From Bacteroidota bacterium (lineage in GTDB: Bacteria > Bacteroidota > Ignavibacteria > UBA10030 > UBA8401): 35,394 nt of DNA. A program made the translations under genes and the position numbers. Of the stretch, positions 23,931-34,038 are shown in pieces (the stretch's first letter is position 1; every line of letters starts with the position of its first letter). The notes below the pieces were generated by a model, which saw nothing but the letters and a program-made list of their open reading frames with translations, made no database searches and had not been told where the DNA came from. Location of the stretch: contig JAJYOI010000029.1 of the NCBI GenBank assembly GCA_021796275.1, positions 1-35,394 of the forward strand, read 5' to 3'.

Positions 23931-24680
23931 ATGAAACGGTTGTTTAAGTCAAAAGTTGCATGGGTGGCAGCGGCAGGATTGAGCATGATCACAGTCACGT
24001 CAGCACAATCATTCCAAAATGGATTTCTATCATTTCACAAATTTTCCCAGCATTCTGCGCCCGATACCTCGATCGTTTTCCAGTCGCCGAACGGCGATGC
24101 ATTGCAACCTTCACCTGCATCTGCACTGTATAATGCGTACGGTATGGATATTCTTCTTTCCAACAGCGGACTCGGACTCGGCGCATTTTATCGCCACCAG
24201 TACACGAGAGATATTTATGGAACGGTGGCACTTTCCATTTCGGAAGCAAAAGATGATAACGAAGTTGAATATGTTGATTTTTACGGACAGACGTATGTTC
24301 CCGGAAAAATCAATCGTTTTCTTTTAGTTCCTCTTCACGTTGGTGTGCAATACCGGCTATTCGCTGACGAGATTGTAGATAATTTCCGTCCGTATGTTAA
24401 TGCCGGCATGGGACCCACGCTTGTTTTTTCCACACCGTACGATAAAGAATTTTTCAGCAGCCTTGGCTATGGCCAGGCGCATTACACGCTTGGCGGCTAT
24501 ATTGGCCTCGGCGCTTTTTTTGGGATTGACAAGGATAATCTTTCCGGCGTGAATATTCGGTACTACTTCATCCCGTTTGCGAAAGGTCTTCCCAGCATGC
24601 AGGACGAGTTAGGCAACATCATTACGAAAAAAGATTTCGGTGGATTTTTCATCACGCTCAATTTCGGTTCGCTGTACTAA
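23931..24680 (+). CDS. Outer-membrane beta-barrel-like protein, unknown function
   Basis: A 249-residue protein with a signal peptide (residues 1-26, ending TSAQS) and a mature part of alternating polar and hydrophobic strands with many aromatic residues: GLGLGAFYRHQYTRDIYGTVALSISEA, RFLLVPLHVGVQYRLF, RPYVNAGMGPTLVF, YTLGGYIGLGAFFGI, and the C-terminal GGFFITLNFGSLY. This is the typical pattern of an 8-10-strand outer-membrane barrel, with the RPYVNAGMGP signature common in such proteins. No specific family is recognised. It stands alone between the RlmI-type gene (50 bases) and the convergent uvrA. Confidence 0.75.
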   Translation: MKRLFKSKVAWVAAAGLSMITVTSAQSFQNGFLSFHKFSQHSAPDTSIVFQSPNGDALQPSPASALYNAYGMDILLSNSGLGLGAFYRHQYTRDIYGTVALSISEAKDDNEVEYVDFYGQTYVPGKINRFLLVPLHVGVQYRLFADEIVDNFRPYVNAGMGPTLVFSTPYDKEFFSSLGYGQAHYTLGGYIGLGAFFGIDKDNLSGVNIRYYFIPFAKGLPSMQDELGNIITKKDFGGFFITLNFGSLY

Positions 24681-27780: not shown

Positions 27781-29061
27781 CTACTTCACACCTAATAATT
27801 GTATCAATCCCAAACTTAGTTCCGGAACATACGTAATGATCATCAGCGCGGCAAAAAGTATGGCAATGAACGGCAGCGTTGCAAGCGTGACTTTGCCGAT
27901 TGATTTTTCAAAACGAAAACTTGAAATGAACAGATTCAATCCCACCGGCGGAGTGAGATAACCAATTTCAAGGTTCGCAAGAAAAATAATGCCGAGGTGA
28001 ACCGGATCAACGCCGTACTGTCTTGCAATCGGAATAATGAGCGGAACAACAACAATGATGGCGGAGAAAATGTCCATCATCATTCCAACAATGATAAGAA
28101 AAAGATTCAGAATGATGAGAAAAATCAATTTGCTGGTGATGACGCTGCTGATGAATTCAAATAATCGCTGCGGCACCTGCTGATCAATGAGGAAGCTCGT
28201 CAACCCCATTGCCGTGGCAAGGATCATCAGAATTGCGCCGACGAGAATCATGCTTTCTTTCATCACGCGAGGAACATCGCTGAACAATTTCAGATCGCGG
28301 TAGATAAAAACTTCGACGACCAAAACGTAAAATGCCGTCACGGCGGCGGCTTCGGTTGCCGTGAACATTCCGGAATAGATTCCAATGATAATGACAAATG
28401 GAAGCGGCACTTCCCACGCGGCATCTTTCAACGCACGCCAGACTTTTTTCCACTCGAACGGATGGCGCTGAACTTTTGTTGCGACACCTTGCCGGACACT
28501 GTAGACAGAAAGAATGATCACCAACAAAATTCCCGGCACAATTCCCGCCAAAAATAATTGGCTGATGGAAACTTCTGAAACGATACCGTACAAAATAATC
28601 GGCAGACTCGGAGGGAAAAGCAATCCAAGACTGCCGGAAGTTGTGACGAGTCCGAGCGAAAATTTTTCAGAATATTTTTCCGAAATCAAAATCGGATAGA
28701 CAAGTCCGCCGAGAGCGACAATTGTGATGCCAGATCCGCCGGTAAATGCGGTAAAGATTGCGCACGCTGCCAACACGACAATCGCAAGTCCGCCTGGAAG
28801 CCAGCCGACCAATGCTTGTGTGAGCGCAACGAGACGTTTCGGCGTGTTGCTTTCTGCCAGCATATATCCGGCAAAAGTAAAAAGCGGAATTGCAAGAAGC
28901 ACCGGCTGACTTGCAAGGCGGTACATTTCAACAATGATCGCCGCCGTGTCAATACCCTGGGAGGAAAATCCAACAAGCGCAATGGAACCGATGACAGAAA
29001 AAAGCGGTGCGCCAAACAACATGAGCGCGATGAATGCGAGAACAACAATGATGATCGGCAT
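27781..29061 (-). CDS. dctM: TRAP transporter large membrane subunit (DctM)
   Basis: The translocating subunit of a tripartite ATP-independent periplasmic transporter, using a sodium or proton gradient to import the ligand delivered by DctP. The 426-residue product is almost entirely hydrophobic with about a dozen helices. Family signatures are visible: LASQPVLLAIPLFTFAGYMLAES near the N-terminus, GGSGITIVALGGLVYPIL, TTSGSLGLLFPPSLPIILYG, and NLEIGYLTPPVGLNLF near the C-terminus. The start overlaps the DctQ stop by one base, so expression is coupled. Ligand is discussed with DctP. Confidence 0.95.
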   Translation of the reverse strand: MPIIIVVLAFIALMLFGAPLFSVIGSIALVGFSSQGIDTAAIIVEMYRLASQPVLLAIPLFTFAGYMLAESNTPKRLVALTQALVGWLPGGLAIVVLAACAIFTAFTGGSGITIVALGGLVYPILISEKYSEKFSLGLVTTSGSLGLLFPPSLPIILYGIVSEVSISQLFLAGIVPGILLVIILSVYSVRQGVATKVQRHPFEWKKVWRALKDAAWEVPLPFVIIIGIYSGMFTATEAAAVTAFYVLVVEVFIYRDLKLFSDVPRVMKESMILVGAILMILATAMGLTSFLIDQQVPQRLFEFISSVITSKLIFLIILNLFLIIVGMMMDIFSAIIVVVPLIIPIARQYGVDPVHLGIIFLANLEIGYLTPPVGLNLFISSFRFEKSIGKVTLATLPFIAILFAALMIITYVPELSLGLIQLLGVK

Positions 29062-29606
29062 TAAACGCTCGCCTTCTCCGCCAATGGCGGATCAGCCTTC
29101 GGCGGAATCTTCATTGTCCAGTCGCCGCGGATGATTTCAACCGTACGCTGCAGCGCAACAACGAAAAACCGAAATGATATCAATCCATATCCGATTGGAA
29201 TGACAACGACAAAATACCACGTGGGCAGATTGAGAATAAGTGTGCTGTCCGGATCAATGCCGATCTGAATAAAGGCAATCGCCGCATTCAACAAAAAATA
29301 ACAGATGACTCCCGCAAACAACGAAGTCAGAATAGAAAGAATTTTCTGGAACTTGGCAGGAATGAACTTTGTCAGGAAATCTACTTTGATGTGCCGGTCA
29401 TCGCCAGTCGCAATTGTAGCGCCAAGAAAACCAAGCCACAGCACGAGGTGGCGCAGAAGAATATCGCCCCACTCAATGCTCGTGCCGAAAAAATTTCTCA
29501 GCACTACCTGACCGAACGACATCAAAATCATTGCGCTGAGAACGAGCACCAGCAGCCATCCGGCAATCCGGGCGATAACGCGATCAACGAATAACAGTGC
29601 TTTCAT
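29061..29606 (-). CDS. dctQ: TRAP transporter small membrane subunit (DctQ)
   Basis: The four-helix partner of DctM. The 181-residue product has helices at about residues 14-36 (IAGWLLVLVLSAMILMSFGQVVLR), 48-66, 90-115 and 125-150. The FFGTSIEWGDILLRHLVLWLGFLGA and ATGDDRHIKVDFLTKFIP segments are the recognisable DctQ signatures. Its start overlaps the dctP stop by four bases and its stop overlaps dctM by one, so P, Q and M are translated as a block. The C-terminal 25 residues are a charged cytoplasmic tail. Confidence 0.93.
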   Translation of the reverse strand: MKALLFVDRVIARIAGWLLVLVLSAMILMSFGQVVLRNFFGTSIEWGDILLRHLVLWLGFLGATIATGDDRHIKVDFLTKFIPAKFQKILSILTSLFAGVICYFLLNAAIAFIQIGIDPDSTLILNLPTWYFVVVIPIGYGLISFRFFVVALQRTVEIIRGDWTMKIPPKADPPLAEKASV

Positions 29607-30610
29607 TTCGCACCATTGTGCTCGGTGCGGAAATCGGCGAGCGCTTTCTCAAGCCGTTGTAAAAGGTCAGCCGAATATAATTTTCCCACCATATATTGTC
29701 GCGCAGTCTTTCCAATTTCATCATACTGCTGTGCATCTTTTTGCGACGCTGGTTCCGTAAACGTGATGTGATTTCTCTTCAAAATTTGGAGCGACTTGTC
29801 GTTATCTTTGCGGCTAAGTTCGGTGAGCTTCTGAAGATATTTCTTTCCGTCGGTAAGAAGAATCTGCTGAAGGTCGGAAGGTATCTTGTCAAATTCCCGC
29901 TTCGAAATCAGCACAGCACCCATTGAATTTGCCAAAGGAACGTCGAGCATGTATTTCACACTGGTGAACCATTGCAATGATACTGCTGCCAGCGGAGAAG
30001 TATACACGCCGTCAATCAATCCGGTTTGCAGAGACGTCAGCACATCGGTGATGGAAAGCGGGAACGGTTTCACTTCGAGCGCTTTAAATGTCGCTTCTGC
30101 CACCGGATCGCCTTCCCACATCCACATTTTCACGCCGTCAAGATCGCGCACTTTCGTGATCGGTTTGTTCGTGAAAACGTACACGTATCCAACTTCAGCC
30201 CAGCCCAGCAAAACAAATCCGTTGTCTTCGAATGCTTTCCGAAACTCGCCGTCGAACTTGTCGAGAATGTAATCAACTTCCGCATGGCTTTTGAACAAGA
30301 ACGGCGAATCGAGAATGCGGACTTCGGGCGCAATCTTCCCCATGCCGACACCGGTGAACCCTGCACTGTGATATTGGCCGAGTCGGATTTTGCGAAGTAC
30401 ATCCTGCTCGTCGCCGGCAACACCGCCCGCATAAATTTTAAATCCGAGTTTGCCGCCGCTTTCCTTTCGGACAGCATTGTCATATTCGTGCATGACGTTC
30501 ATCCACGTGCTTCCTTCCGGCGCAAGCGTGGCGAACTTGATAGTAAATTCTTGGGAGAACGCTACAGAAGTAAAAAGGATAAAGGAAAAAAGATAAAGGA
30601 GTTTTTTCAT
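29603..30610 (-). CDS. dctP: TRAP transporter periplasmic solute-binding protein (DctP)
   Basis: The periplasmic receptor of the TRAP system, 335 residues with a signal peptide (1-19, ending AFSQ). The body follows the DctP family: IKFATLAPEGSTWM, GGVAGDEQDVLRKIRLGQYHSAGF, and VLTSLQTGLIDGVYTSP. In typical members the segment after GLK is IRV, whose arginine clamps the ligand carboxylate; here it reads DGVKMWMWEGDPVAEATF, with tryptophan near that place and no arginine nearby. The ligand may therefore not be a simple carboxylate. The gene lies 30 bases after the TatT gene and overlaps dctQ by four, making a four-gene TPAT-type operon. Confidence 0.93.
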   Translation of the reverse strand: MKKLLYLFSFILFTSVAFSQEFTIKFATLAPEGSTWMNVMHEYDNAVRKESGGKLGFKIYAGGVAGDEQDVLRKIRLGQYHSAGFTGVGMGKIAPEVRILDSPFLFKSHAEVDYILDKFDGEFRKAFEDNGFVLLGWAEVGYVYVFTNKPITKVRDLDGVKMWMWEGDPVAEATFKALEVKPFPLSITDVLTSLQTGLIDGVYTSPLAAVSLQWFTSVKYMLDVPLANSMGAVLISKREFDKIPSDLQQILLTDGKKYLQKLTELSRKDNDKSLQILKRNHITFTEPASQKDAQQYDEIGKTARQYMVGKLYSADLLQRLEKALADFRTEHNGAK

Positions 30611-30640
30611 AGTGTTTTTTTCTGGGCAATAAACAGTATC

Positions 30641-31519
30641 TTAAAATAATTCTGATTCTTTCGCGAGCAGCAATCGCGCTTTCTTTTTTGCAACGGCATT
30701 CACCAATCGCTGTTCGGGAAGAATATCAATCGGCGCGTCTTCTACCGTTTTCAATAACGATTCGAACAACTGTTGATTTTGTACCTGCACGGCGTAACTG
30801 CGGGCATAATAGACGTACGTAAGCAAAAATTTGTTTTTGCTGATCTCAAGGCATCGTTCGAAATGCTCTTTCGCTTTCTCCGGATTGCCGCCAAGAACTT
30901 TCGGCGTTGTGGCAAGGATCATTCCAAAATACAAATGTGCACTTCCGTAATAATATTGCTCGTCATGATGAAGCACAAACTCCATCATCGCATTTACTTT
31001 ATACAAATCAACAAGCACGGCAGGATCGTCGAGGCTGAGATTGATCAAATTGCCCCACGCATTTGCTGTCCAGAAAATAAACGGAACATCGTCATCGGAA
31101 AATGATTCGAGACTTTTTGTGAACGCCGCGGGATTTTCATCGAACGCAACATCGAATGCTTTGTTTTTCCGTAATACCTCCAGCCCGTAATCGCGGGCGC
31201 GCGTATAAAACATTTTTGCCCGCTCAATCCCGTTAACAGAATCGTCTTCCACAAAACCGAGCGCATAGCCGGTATAGCCTTGCGTCAGCATGAGAAGAAG
31301 ATGGTCGTTGCCGGGGTCGGATTTGTGAAGCGCTTCGAGCAGTTTCAAATCGGAAGCAATCGCCTGTTCCGCCAAACCGAGATCGGATTCCTCGAACACG
31401 GCTTCCATACCTTTGTCGAGAATTCCGGTTGTGGATTTGACTGCAATCGCTTGAAAAACGCCGCACGACCAGCTTTGAAAGCCGAGCAGAAACGCTGCTA
31501 CCATTATTCCTTTATTCAT
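30641..31519 (-). CDS. TatT-like TPR lipoprotein of a TPAT transporter
   Basis: A 292-residue protein of the TRAP-associated TatT family, known from Treponema pallidum Tp0956, where a trimer of helical TPR-like repeats partners the P subunit. The N-terminus has a hydrophobic segment followed by C19 (SWSCG), a relaxed lipobox. The body is helical with repeat-like units (TQGYTGYALGFVEDD, ERAKMFYTRARDYGLEVL, YGSAHLYFGMILATTPKVLGGNPEKAKEHFERCLEIS). The last of these, KVLGGNPEKAKEHFERC, is a family hallmark. The frame is open up to 31582, but the ATG at 31519 gives the signal peptide and has its own promoter. It is the first gene of the operon with dctP, dctQ and dctM. Confidence 0.88.
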   Translation of the reverse strand: MNKGIMVAAFLLGFQSWSCGVFQAIAVKSTTGILDKGMEAVFEESDLGLAEQAIASDLKLLEALHKSDPGNDHLLLMLTQGYTGYALGFVEDDSVNGIERAKMFYTRARDYGLEVLRKNKAFDVAFDENPAAFTKSLESFSDDDVPFIFWTANAWGNLINLSLDDPAVLVDLYKVNAMMEFVLHHDEQYYYGSAHLYFGMILATTPKVLGGNPEKAKEHFERCLEISKNKFLLTYVYYARSYAVQVQNQQLFESLLKTVEDAPIDILPEQRLVNAVAKKKARLLLAKESELF

Positions 31520-31529
31520 ACGTGAATTC

Positions 31530-31558
31530 AATATAGAAAAAAGAGGAAATTTTTCCAA
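31530..31558 (-). promoter_or_regulatory. Sigma70-like promoter of the TatT-DctPQM operon
   Basis: On the minus strand TTGGAA (31558-31553), 17 bp, TATATT (31535-31530). It ends ten bases before the TatT ATG, so the mRNA would be nearly leaderless. It gives the transporter operon expression independent of the sugar kinase upstream. Confidence 0.52.
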
Positions 31559-31585: not shown

Positions 31586-32551
31586 TCACATTTTCTTTAG
31601 CCGCTTAACGAGAACGCGCTCGCTTAAACGCTGCACTTCTTCCATTGATGCTTTTGCCACTGCCCATTCTTGCGCGTTCGCGGCGCCAGCGGCGGCACCC
31701 CACGCGAGACATCGTTCAAATTTCCAGCCTTGAAGAAATCCATACAAAATTCCTGCGGTCATTGCATCGCCGGAACCGACGGGATTCACAGCGTGAATTT
31801 CGGGCGGGAGAATTTTCCAAAAATGTTCCTTGATTGCCGCGTATGCCGCATGTGCACCATTGGTGATAACTGTATATTGAATCCCGCGATCAAGAAGCAT
31901 TTGCAATCCTTTCTGGAAATCGAGATCGTCATTGAGAGTTACGCCGAATGCTTCTTCAAATTCCTTCCGGTTCACTTTCACAAGTGTGGGAACTGTTTCG
32001 AGCGCCGACAAAAACGCGCGGCCGTACGAATCGAGCACGCTGCACACACCGAGGTGGTTCGCACTGACGATGATCCTGCTGAACACATCGTCGGAAGATG
32101 GCGAAGGCGAACTGCCGGCACAAACAATCCACCGGGCAATAAGCTCATCAGCTTTAGGCTGAGGGCTTCTGGCAATGAACTGCCTGCAACGTTCTACCAA
32201 ACGATTCGCCTCGTCGGGAGAAATTTCCGGAGGCGGATCGAAGAATGATGTTGCAGTTCCGTCCGCTTCGCGGTACGTGATACCTTCGCGGGTCGGAGAT
32301 TTTGTTTGCACAAAGTCGTGAGCGATTTTTTCTTCCGAAAGAATTCGCGCAAGAATCGCTCCCGTCTCGCCGCCGATAAATCCTGTGGCGGTTGTTGAAA
32401 TGCCGAACCATGTCAACTGGCAGGCGACGTTATTTCCTTTGCCGCCGGCGGCTATTTCACTCTTCGACGCCCGATGAATTGACCCGCGCTGAAGTGAATC
32501 AATGTACAGCGTTTTATCAAGCAGCGGGTTTAATGTAATTGTTGTGACCAT
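31586..32551 (-). CDS. PfkB-family sugar-phosphate kinase (1-phosphofructokinase-like)
   Basis: A 321-residue kinase of the ribokinase superfamily. The N-terminus TITLNPLLDKT and the early GGKGNNVA motif place it in the 1-phosphofructokinase/tagatose-6-phosphate kinase branch. The C-terminal NPVGSGDAMTAG holds the anion hole and catalytic Asp. FruK, LacC and 6-phosphofructokinase PfkB share these signatures, so the substrate (fructose-1-phosphate, fructose-6-phosphate or tagatose-6-phosphate) is uncertain; no PTS genes are nearby to favour fructose-1-phosphate. It sits between the amylase gene (77 bases upstream) and the TatT gene, on the same strand, so a role in sugar use is possible. Confidence 0.88.
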   Translation of the reverse strand: MVTTITLNPLLDKTLYIDSLQRGSIHRASKSEIAAGGKGNNVACQLTWFGISTTATGFIGGETGAILARILSEEKIAHDFVQTKSPTREGITYREADGTATSFFDPPPEISPDEANRLVERCRQFIARSPQPKADELIARWIVCAGSSPSPSSDDVFSRIIVSANHLGVCSVLDSYGRAFLSALETVPTLVKVNRKEFEEAFGVTLNDDLDFQKGLQMLLDRGIQYTVITNGAHAAYAAIKEHFWKILPPEIHAVNPVGSGDAMTAGILYGFLQGWKFERCLAWGAAAGAANAQEWAVAKASMEEVQRLSERVLVKRLKKM

Positions 32552-32628
32552 AACAACGTTTTTACTAATGAACTAATGTTGTACGAGCCGCAATTTTGAC
32601 AACGAAAACTTAAGACGGGGCACTTGCT

Positions 32629-34038
32629 TCATTCGTTAACAACATAGACTCTGTATCCCATCGCAGGAACAATCACCGGGATAGATTTTTCCGGCGACAC
32701 GCTGATATCCCACATATCTCCGGTAAACACTTCGGCAAGATGAATTTGTTTGCCGATAGAAAGTTTCGGACCCGAAAAATCCAATGTGATCATTGCGTTG
32801 AATTTTGAAAAATTATACACAACCAATATCGTATCGCTTCCGGCAATGCGTTCAAAAGCATAGACGTAACGGTCATTGTATGTCGGAATACGAAGCATTT
32901 TTCCGTCACGCAGTGCAGGATGTTCGCGGCGTATTTCGAACAACCGTGTATAAAATTTTCGGAAGTCATCTCCCCCTTTCCAGTTAATCGGCGTTTTTTC
33001 AAAAAGAGAAAGCTTCTTCGGATTCCCGATTTCCTGTCCGTCGTAAATGAGCGGAATGCCGGGAATTGTGTTGACAATAACTGCCGCCAACTTTGCGCCT
33101 TCTTCGCCGAACTTTACCACGTCAGGGTTATCCCAAGCATTCTTGTCGTGATTCGAGCTGAAACGCATCCGCAGCGAGCCTTGCGGGAATGTCACTTCCT
33201 CACGATTCAATTCTTTGTCAAGTGCGTATGCGGTGAGCTTTCCCGTCATCATCGGGGAAAGTATATCGTAGATATTCCAACTATAGGTGACATCGAACGC
33301 TTTCACATGCTGCGCCGGATCGGAGCCTTCGGAAAGCATCATCACCGGTTTAATGCTATCGAGCGCCGCGCGTGCTTCTTCCCAAAAAGGAAGCGGCACT
33401 AATTCGGAGACATCGCAGCGAAATCCGTCAATGCCGACATCGCGAACCCAGTATTTCATCATATCAATCATGTATTGCCAAAGCTCGTGGTGCGAATAAT
33501 CAAGATCGGCAACATCGGTCCAATCCGGATTGGGAGAAATTATTTTCCCTGTGCTGTCTTTTGTAAACCAGTCTGGGTGTTCCTTAATGAGTTTGCTGTC
33601 CCACGATGTGTGGTTTGCAACGAGATCAATTATAAGATGAAAACCAAGCACATGCGCCCGGTGAAGCAATCGTTTGAAATCGTCCATCGTTCCGTACTCA
33701 GGATTGATGCCGTAATAATCCTGCACGGAATACGGGCTGCCGAGCGTTCCTTTCCGCTTCACTTCGCCGACAGGATGAATCGGCATGAGCCAGAGGATGG
33801 TAACGCCCAACTGTTTTAGCTCGGGAAGTTTTTTTTCGATGCCGGCGAATGTTCCTTCGGGAGAAAAAGAGCGGGGATATATTTCATAAATAATGCCGTC
33901 GCGAACCCATTCCGGAGAAGAGCGCGCGTGCATGATTGAAAGTTTCCGCGCGCGTGTGCTATCGAATGACTGCGCCGCAAGGTAGGAGGCGGCAAGAAGA
34001 ATCACCACAATGAGAAGAATGAGTCTCATAAGTTTCAC
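32629..34038 (-). CDS. Secreted GH13 family alpha-amylase-type glycosidase
   Basis: A 469-residue GH13 enzyme with a signal peptide (about residues 1-22, ending LAAQ). The four conserved regions are clear: DLVANHTS (138-145), GFRCDV with nucleophile D209, the acid/base E237 in LSEGSD, and SSNHDKN with the stabilising D298. IYEIYPRSFSPEGTF and WLMPIHPVGE are the usual N-terminal barrel segments, and a C-terminal all-beta domain (about 380-469) follows. It would hydrolyse alpha-1,4-glucans or related oligosaccharides in the periplasm or outside. The start is GTG (34038) or the ATG at 34029; neither has a ribosome binding site. A terminator-like hairpin lies just upstream (34056-34076). Confidence 0.92.
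   Translation of the reverse strand: MKLMRLILLIVVILLAASYLAAQSFDSTRARKLSIMHARSSPEWVRDGIIYEIYPRSFSPEGTFAGIEKKLPELKQLGVTILWLMPIHPVGEVKRKGTLGSPYSVQDYYGINPEYGTMDDFKRLLHRAHVLGFHLIIDLVANHTSWDSKLIKEHPDWFTKDSTGKIISPNPDWTDVADLDYSHHELWQYMIDMMKYWVRDVGIDGFRCDVSELVPLPFWEEARAALDSIKPVMMLSEGSDPAQHVKAFDVTYSWNIYDILSPMMTGKLTAYALDKELNREEVTFPQGSLRMRFSSNHDKNAWDNPDVVKFGEEGAKLAAVIVNTIPGIPLIYDGQEIGNPKKLSLFEKTPINWKGGDDFRKFYTRLFEIRREHPALRDGKMLRIPTYNDRYVYAFERIAGSDTILVVYNFSKFNAMITLDFSGPKLSIGKQIHLAEVFTGDMWDISVSPEKSIPVIVPAMGYRVYVVNE

Follow-up and report, generated by a model that had tools for sequence, protein, structure and literature searches.

Import through the TRAP permease subunits DctQ and DctM is secondary and ion-coupled, with the solute being captured by the binding protein DctP. 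TPATs, in which a TatT lipoprotein is the partner of such a system, have been reported from spirochaetes and some proteobacteria, amounting to ∼36 species in a 2018 review (PMC5812351). The TPAT of Treponema pallidum is encoded by three genes, the Q and M subunits being fused, and according to this review its TatT is a membrane-anchored trimer of which the pore meets the cleft of DctP; a hydrophobic pore of TatT and a proposed role with lipids are likewise given there (PMC5812351). The sterol-binding protein BstC belongs to the same Pfam family as TatT (PMC10942540). In the canonical binding protein SiaP, Arg147 grips the substrate carboxylate, and its loss abolishes high-affinity binding; this Arg is retained in 96.8% of the family, while Tp0957 of T. 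pallidum carries an Ala at this position and Csal_0678, which also lacks the Arg, binds ethanolamine (PMC4646407).

The tatT-dctP-dctQ-dctM operon

The window analysed here, i.e. the whole stretch of 35,394 nucleotides, contains the genes tatT, dctP, dctQ and dctM as one minus-strand block in this order, with the following features:

30641..31519, minus strand: tatT, TPR-type T-component and predicted lipoprotein of 292 amino acids with an ATG start and Cys19 at the lipobox position (PF16811, sequence matches to Tp0956 and 8g52, fold)
29603..30610, minus strand: dctP, TRAP solute-binding protein of 335 amino acids, signal peptide without lipobox Cys (PF03480, NF037995, alignments)
29061..29606, minus strand: dctQ, small membrane subunit of 181 amino acids, a separate gene (PF04290, SiaT/DctMQ structure matches)
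27781..29061, minus strand: dctM, large permease subunit of 426 amino acids (PF06808, TIGR00786)
30107..30130, minus strand: codons of the KMWMWEGD signature motif within dctP (alignments)
31530..31558, minus strand: probable tatT promoter TTGGAA-N17-TATATT (conservation and motif counts)

A gap of 30 bases separates tatT from dctP, while dctP and dctQ overlap by 4 bases (ATGA) and dctQ and dctM by a single base (TAATG); the coordinates and spacing given in the earlier note were thus confirmed from the sequence. The product of 30641-31519 matched the Pfam TAtT family PF16811 over the full length of the profile (positions 1-263 of 263; E 1.7e-81) with 273.8 bits, the cut-off being 26.5 bits, and its sequence matched Tp0956 at 5.5e-9 and the T-component 8g52 at 2.9e-18. 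Its AlphaFold2 single-chain model (mean pLDDT 92) retrieved only TPAT T-components and BstC in Foldseek at E ≤ 1e-3, with Z-scores of 30.2 to 4di3_A, 29.9 to 3u64, 29.6 to 8G52 and 19 to BstC. Its proposed membership of the TatT family was therefore upheld by the profile score as well as by a fold with a Z-score of about 30 to Tp0956. DctP matched PF03480 (E 5e-42), NF037995 (1e-90) and, by sequence, Tp0957; its single-chain AlphaFold2 model (pLDDT 93) matched TRAP binding proteins broadly, and among these Tp0957 (3u65) with a Z-score of 33.5. DctQ was recognised by PF04290 (E 5.6e-25) and by matches to SiaT/DctMQ structures, and DctM by PF06808 (E 1.3e-91) and TIGR00786 (1.6e-112). At these scores, chance as a source of the Pfam assignments is excluded. 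All three domains of a DctP-type TRAP transporter are hence present, and a TatT gene is co-encoded with them. Judged by profiles, by the sequence matches to Tp0956 and Tp0957 and by the predicted folds (4di3/3u64 and 3u65, respectively), the block is a genuine TPAT, a four-gene TRAP import system with TatT as a putative lipoprotein partner.

TatT carries a signal peptide followed by a Cys that is invariant among its relatives (Cys19 kept in all 72 ungapped sequences); the lipobox of the window copy itself, SWSC, is weak. Because this Cys is absent from the signal peptide of DctP, TatT is probably the anchored and DctP the mobile partner. Two long open frames suggestive of TatT fusions (L072 and L075) were dismissed, since in both the signal peptide directly precedes mature TatT and the remainder is an upstream frame.

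By its components, this TPAT would be a secondary importer driven by an ion gradient, in which soluble DctP delivers the solute to the DctQ-DctM permease. TatT, as a predicted membrane-anchored periplasmic lipoprotein, would work together with DctP by picking up or shielding the solute before handing it over, as has been proposed for T. pallidum.

Promoter, neighbourhood and distribution

The promoter-like sequence TTGGAA-N17-TATATT ends 10 bases before the tatT ATG, and it is kept in a congener in which the surrounding intergenic DNA has diverged. Furthermore, 25 of 91 unique loci have TTGRA-N15-20-TATATT ahead of tatT, compared with 0/94 coding sequences, 0/91 reverse complements and a mean of 0.25 after shuffling. 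Together, the conservation in the congener and these counts support the earlier suggestion that the operon has its own promoter. In about half of the lineages (42 of 83 unique loci), the histidine kinase gene of an OmpR-type pair is found upstream of tatT in divergent orientation, at a distance of at most three genes. The genus of the window lacks an adjoining two-component system; the kinase homologue closest to it there (77% identity) maps to a different contig, next to a response regulator. This pair of the same genome (L205:3922-6147, contig C134) is homologous to the one that flanks tatT in the relatives. The link between the two-component system and tatT may reflect regulation or merely ancestral gene order.

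Elsewhere the neighbourhood varies. At KSB1 loci, LemA and CstA often take the place of the two-component pair upstream of tatT; in L146, L154 and L165 they directly precede tatT-dctP, with no DctQM adjoining. Upstream of tatT in the window, and on the same strand, a PfkB-type hexose kinase and an alpha-amylase are encoded (31586-34038), and a PfkB-type kinase also adjoins tatT in the congener G001. Across the loci compared, no enzyme was conserved beside the operon that would indicate the substrate. Farther away, at 23931-24680, the window encodes a secreted protein of 249 amino acids that has no Pfam match, converges on uvrA and is shared within the genus (80% for G001).

In the genome from which the window derives, TatT and DctM each occur once, and both are encoded in this operon. 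Among 60 relatives of the same genus, family and order, mostly of the same family or order, TatT was found in 56 and DctM in 58, and in most of them the DctM of the operon is the only strong one of the genome. Two of the four genomes without TatT (G041 and G058) also lack DctM; in the other two (G002 and G020) a contig end cuts the operon, which led us to reject a true absence. The same applied to G018, where TatT is split into fragments located at the ends of contigs. The gene order is almost invariant, with tatT being convergent with dctPQM in the exception G049. When 395 genomes were drawn evenly across the phylum, only 23 had TatT, almost all from this order and one other family of the class, which makes the conservation lineage-specific. 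Within the lineage, even 1.7-Mb genomes retain the system. No TatT was found on plasmids. In a named collection, which overlaps the other genome sets so that the counts are not independent, we found 389 relatives of the window DctP. The best 80 of these were from MAGs labelled Ignavibacteria or Bacteroidota, Kryptonia, KSB1 and Calditrichota, plus one Elusimicrobia record. These nearest relatives support the FCB-group host that had been presumed from the sequence. Phylum labels in the corresponding tree are rough, as the MAG titles carry old names, and, one Calditrichota/KSB1 clade apart, the tree gives no grounds to claim either transfer or strict vertical descent. Read from these sequence surveys, the TPAT is neither an oddity of one genome nor a stray acquisition; it is a core system found across the order, mostly in a single copy, and usually the sole TRAP importer. 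Our literature search on TRAP transporters or TPATs in Ignavibacteria or Kryptonia returned nothing relevant, nor did we find a description of the core status that the system holds across the lineage.

Where the operon is broken, its partners persist in the genome. In L128 (Chrysopegis), L162 (KSB1) and L176 (Calditrichaceae) tatT lies away from dctP, and exactly one TatT is encoded elsewhere in each genome. In the KSB1 loci L146, L154 and L165 it is dctQM that does not adjoin tatT-dctP; DctM is found elsewhere, with two matches per genome, leaving it ambiguous which permease is used. This co-persistence supports a joint function better than adjacency alone. In the Candidatus Chrysopegis locus (L128:3849-5924), a gene that by eye resembles TonB-dependent receptors lies directly upstream of dctP, in the usual place of tatT, which is on another contig.

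The binding site of DctP and its candidate solutes

In the alignment, DctP of the window has Trp163 at the position of SiaP Arg147, within the motif KMWMWEGDP. Its Val143 occupies the position of the GFR-motif Arg, a residue that contacts the ligand in SiaP. The selectivity Arg is thus missing, as in Tp0957. This Arg is a common rather than a defining feature of TRAP binding proteins; membership by domains stands, the Arg-less state being shared with a 3% minority that includes Tp0957. Trp was present at the Arg147 site in 57 of 57 alignable core-operon members of the order and in 81/81 of the named set (the two sets overlap); the search patterns used to gather the latter did not contain the motif. 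KMWxWEGDP is the motif of all TPAT binding proteins of this class that were compared, and at the GFR-motif position all members aligned have Val or Ile instead of the Arg. Glu139, Tyr144, Glu166 and Asp168 are likewise conserved. As a control, the ordinary TRAP operons of G027, G030, G035, G040 and G055 retain Arg at the position of Arg147 and lack an adjoining TatT. In a few relatives (L206-L210), ordinary Arg-type TRAP operons cluster, by eye, with genes for SDR dehydrogenases and KduI-like proteins, a setting that suggests those operons take up sugar acids.

On sequence grounds, loss of the Arg excludes the canonical salt bridge, which argues against simple organic acids; it does not prove a hydrophobic substrate, since the Arg-less Csal_0678 binds ethanolamine (PMC4646407). 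Nor does TatT by itself imply a non-carboxylate substrate. In a second, divergent TPAT of G040 (L065:4581-8404, contig C17), TatT has 28% identity and DctP is of the Arg type (KVRSQES); TatT and the loss of the Arg are therefore separable. We consider it likely that this core TPAT imports a solute other than a carboxylate, probably one that is hydrophobic or neutral and would pass from TatT to DctP, the substrate, the TatT trimer and its interface with DctP all being putative. A hydrophobic or neutral substrate is the reading that we favour. As its lineage usually has no other TRAP transporter and keeps the system even in genomes of 1.7 Mb, its role is probably general, such as the uptake of lipid-like nutrients or the recovery of envelope lipids, and not niche catabolic. 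It is conceivable, and we propose this with less confidence, that the operons represent a distinct and anciently inherited TPAT class, marked by KMWxWEGDP and the exchange of Arg for Trp, which would serve as a core importer of envelope lipids or hydrophobic solutes in Ignavibacteria-type Bacteroidota, Kryptonia, KSB1 and Calditrichota, in many lineages under the divergent OmpR-type two-component system.

One alternative, which we regard as rather unlikely, is a TPAT whose solute is small and polar, cationic or neutral (amine, polyol or neutral sugar), with TatT only docking and concentrating DctP. In binding proteins, aromatic residues frequently stack against cations or sugars. The conserved acidic residues Glu139, Glu166 and Asp168 lie beside the invariant Trp pair and, together with Tyr144, make a cationic or polar neutral solute possible, in line with the ethanolamine ligand of Csal_0678 (PMC4646407). 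The window operon also follows the amylase and PfkB sugar kinase genes; this neighbourhood is confined to the genus, however, and we rejected it as a hint at the substrate. Moreover, the TatT relatives studied in other systems either contain a hydrophobic pore or are sterol binders (PMC5812351, PMC10942540). An ordinary organic-acid TRAP transporter with an incidental TatT, in which the Trp would be a local exchange made up for elsewhere, would suit both the Arg-type TPAT of L065 and a DctP fold for which most of the closest structures bind organic acids (for example receptors for isethionate, sialate and dicarboxylates), but it is very unlikely, given that both Arg positions are fixed as hydrophobic residues in every member examined from several phyla, that ordinary TRAPs of the same genomes keep the Arg, and that in SiaP its loss abolishes high-affinity binding (PMC4646407).

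In the deep branches of Bacteroidota and in neighbouring phyla, the TPAT is the default and usually the only TRAP system, and its fixed signature departs from the carboxylate rule. KMWxWEGDP provides a sequence rule to separate this TPAT class from ordinary TRAPs, and the question of TPAT cargo becomes testable in harmless environmental bacteria.

Comparison with described systems

The closest described system is Tp0956/Tp0957/TatQM of T. pallidum, which likewise combines TatT, an Arg-less DctP and QM in one operon, and to which the window TatT and DctP are matched in fold (3u64/4di3 and 3u65). The four-part layout had been called best known from this organism; the kinship of TatT and the TRAP subunits stands, whereas the identical four-gene layout does not, as there are three genes in T. 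pallidum with Q and M fused (PMC5812351) and the window has separate Q and M genes. The window DctP further differs by a plain signal peptide without lipobox and by Trp instead of Ala at the Arg site, and the system comes from an environmental (MAG) lineage in which it is kept across the whole order. By sequence (2.9e-18), the closest solved TatT is the T-component of the 'bacterial TPAT family transporter' 8G52, for which we found no describing paper; its fold is tied with that of Tp0956 (Z 29.6), but its identity to the window TatT is only about 24%. BstC of Methylococcus capsulatus (7T1S) shares the Pfam family (PMC10942540) and, at a Z-score of 19, the fold, yet it has 14% identity and partners with BstA (RND) and BstB instead of a TRAP permease. 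Finally, the canonical DctP-type TRAP transporters, such as SiaPQM, have DctP, DctQ and DctM subunits homologous to the window proteins, but they lack TatT and conserve the substrate Arg.
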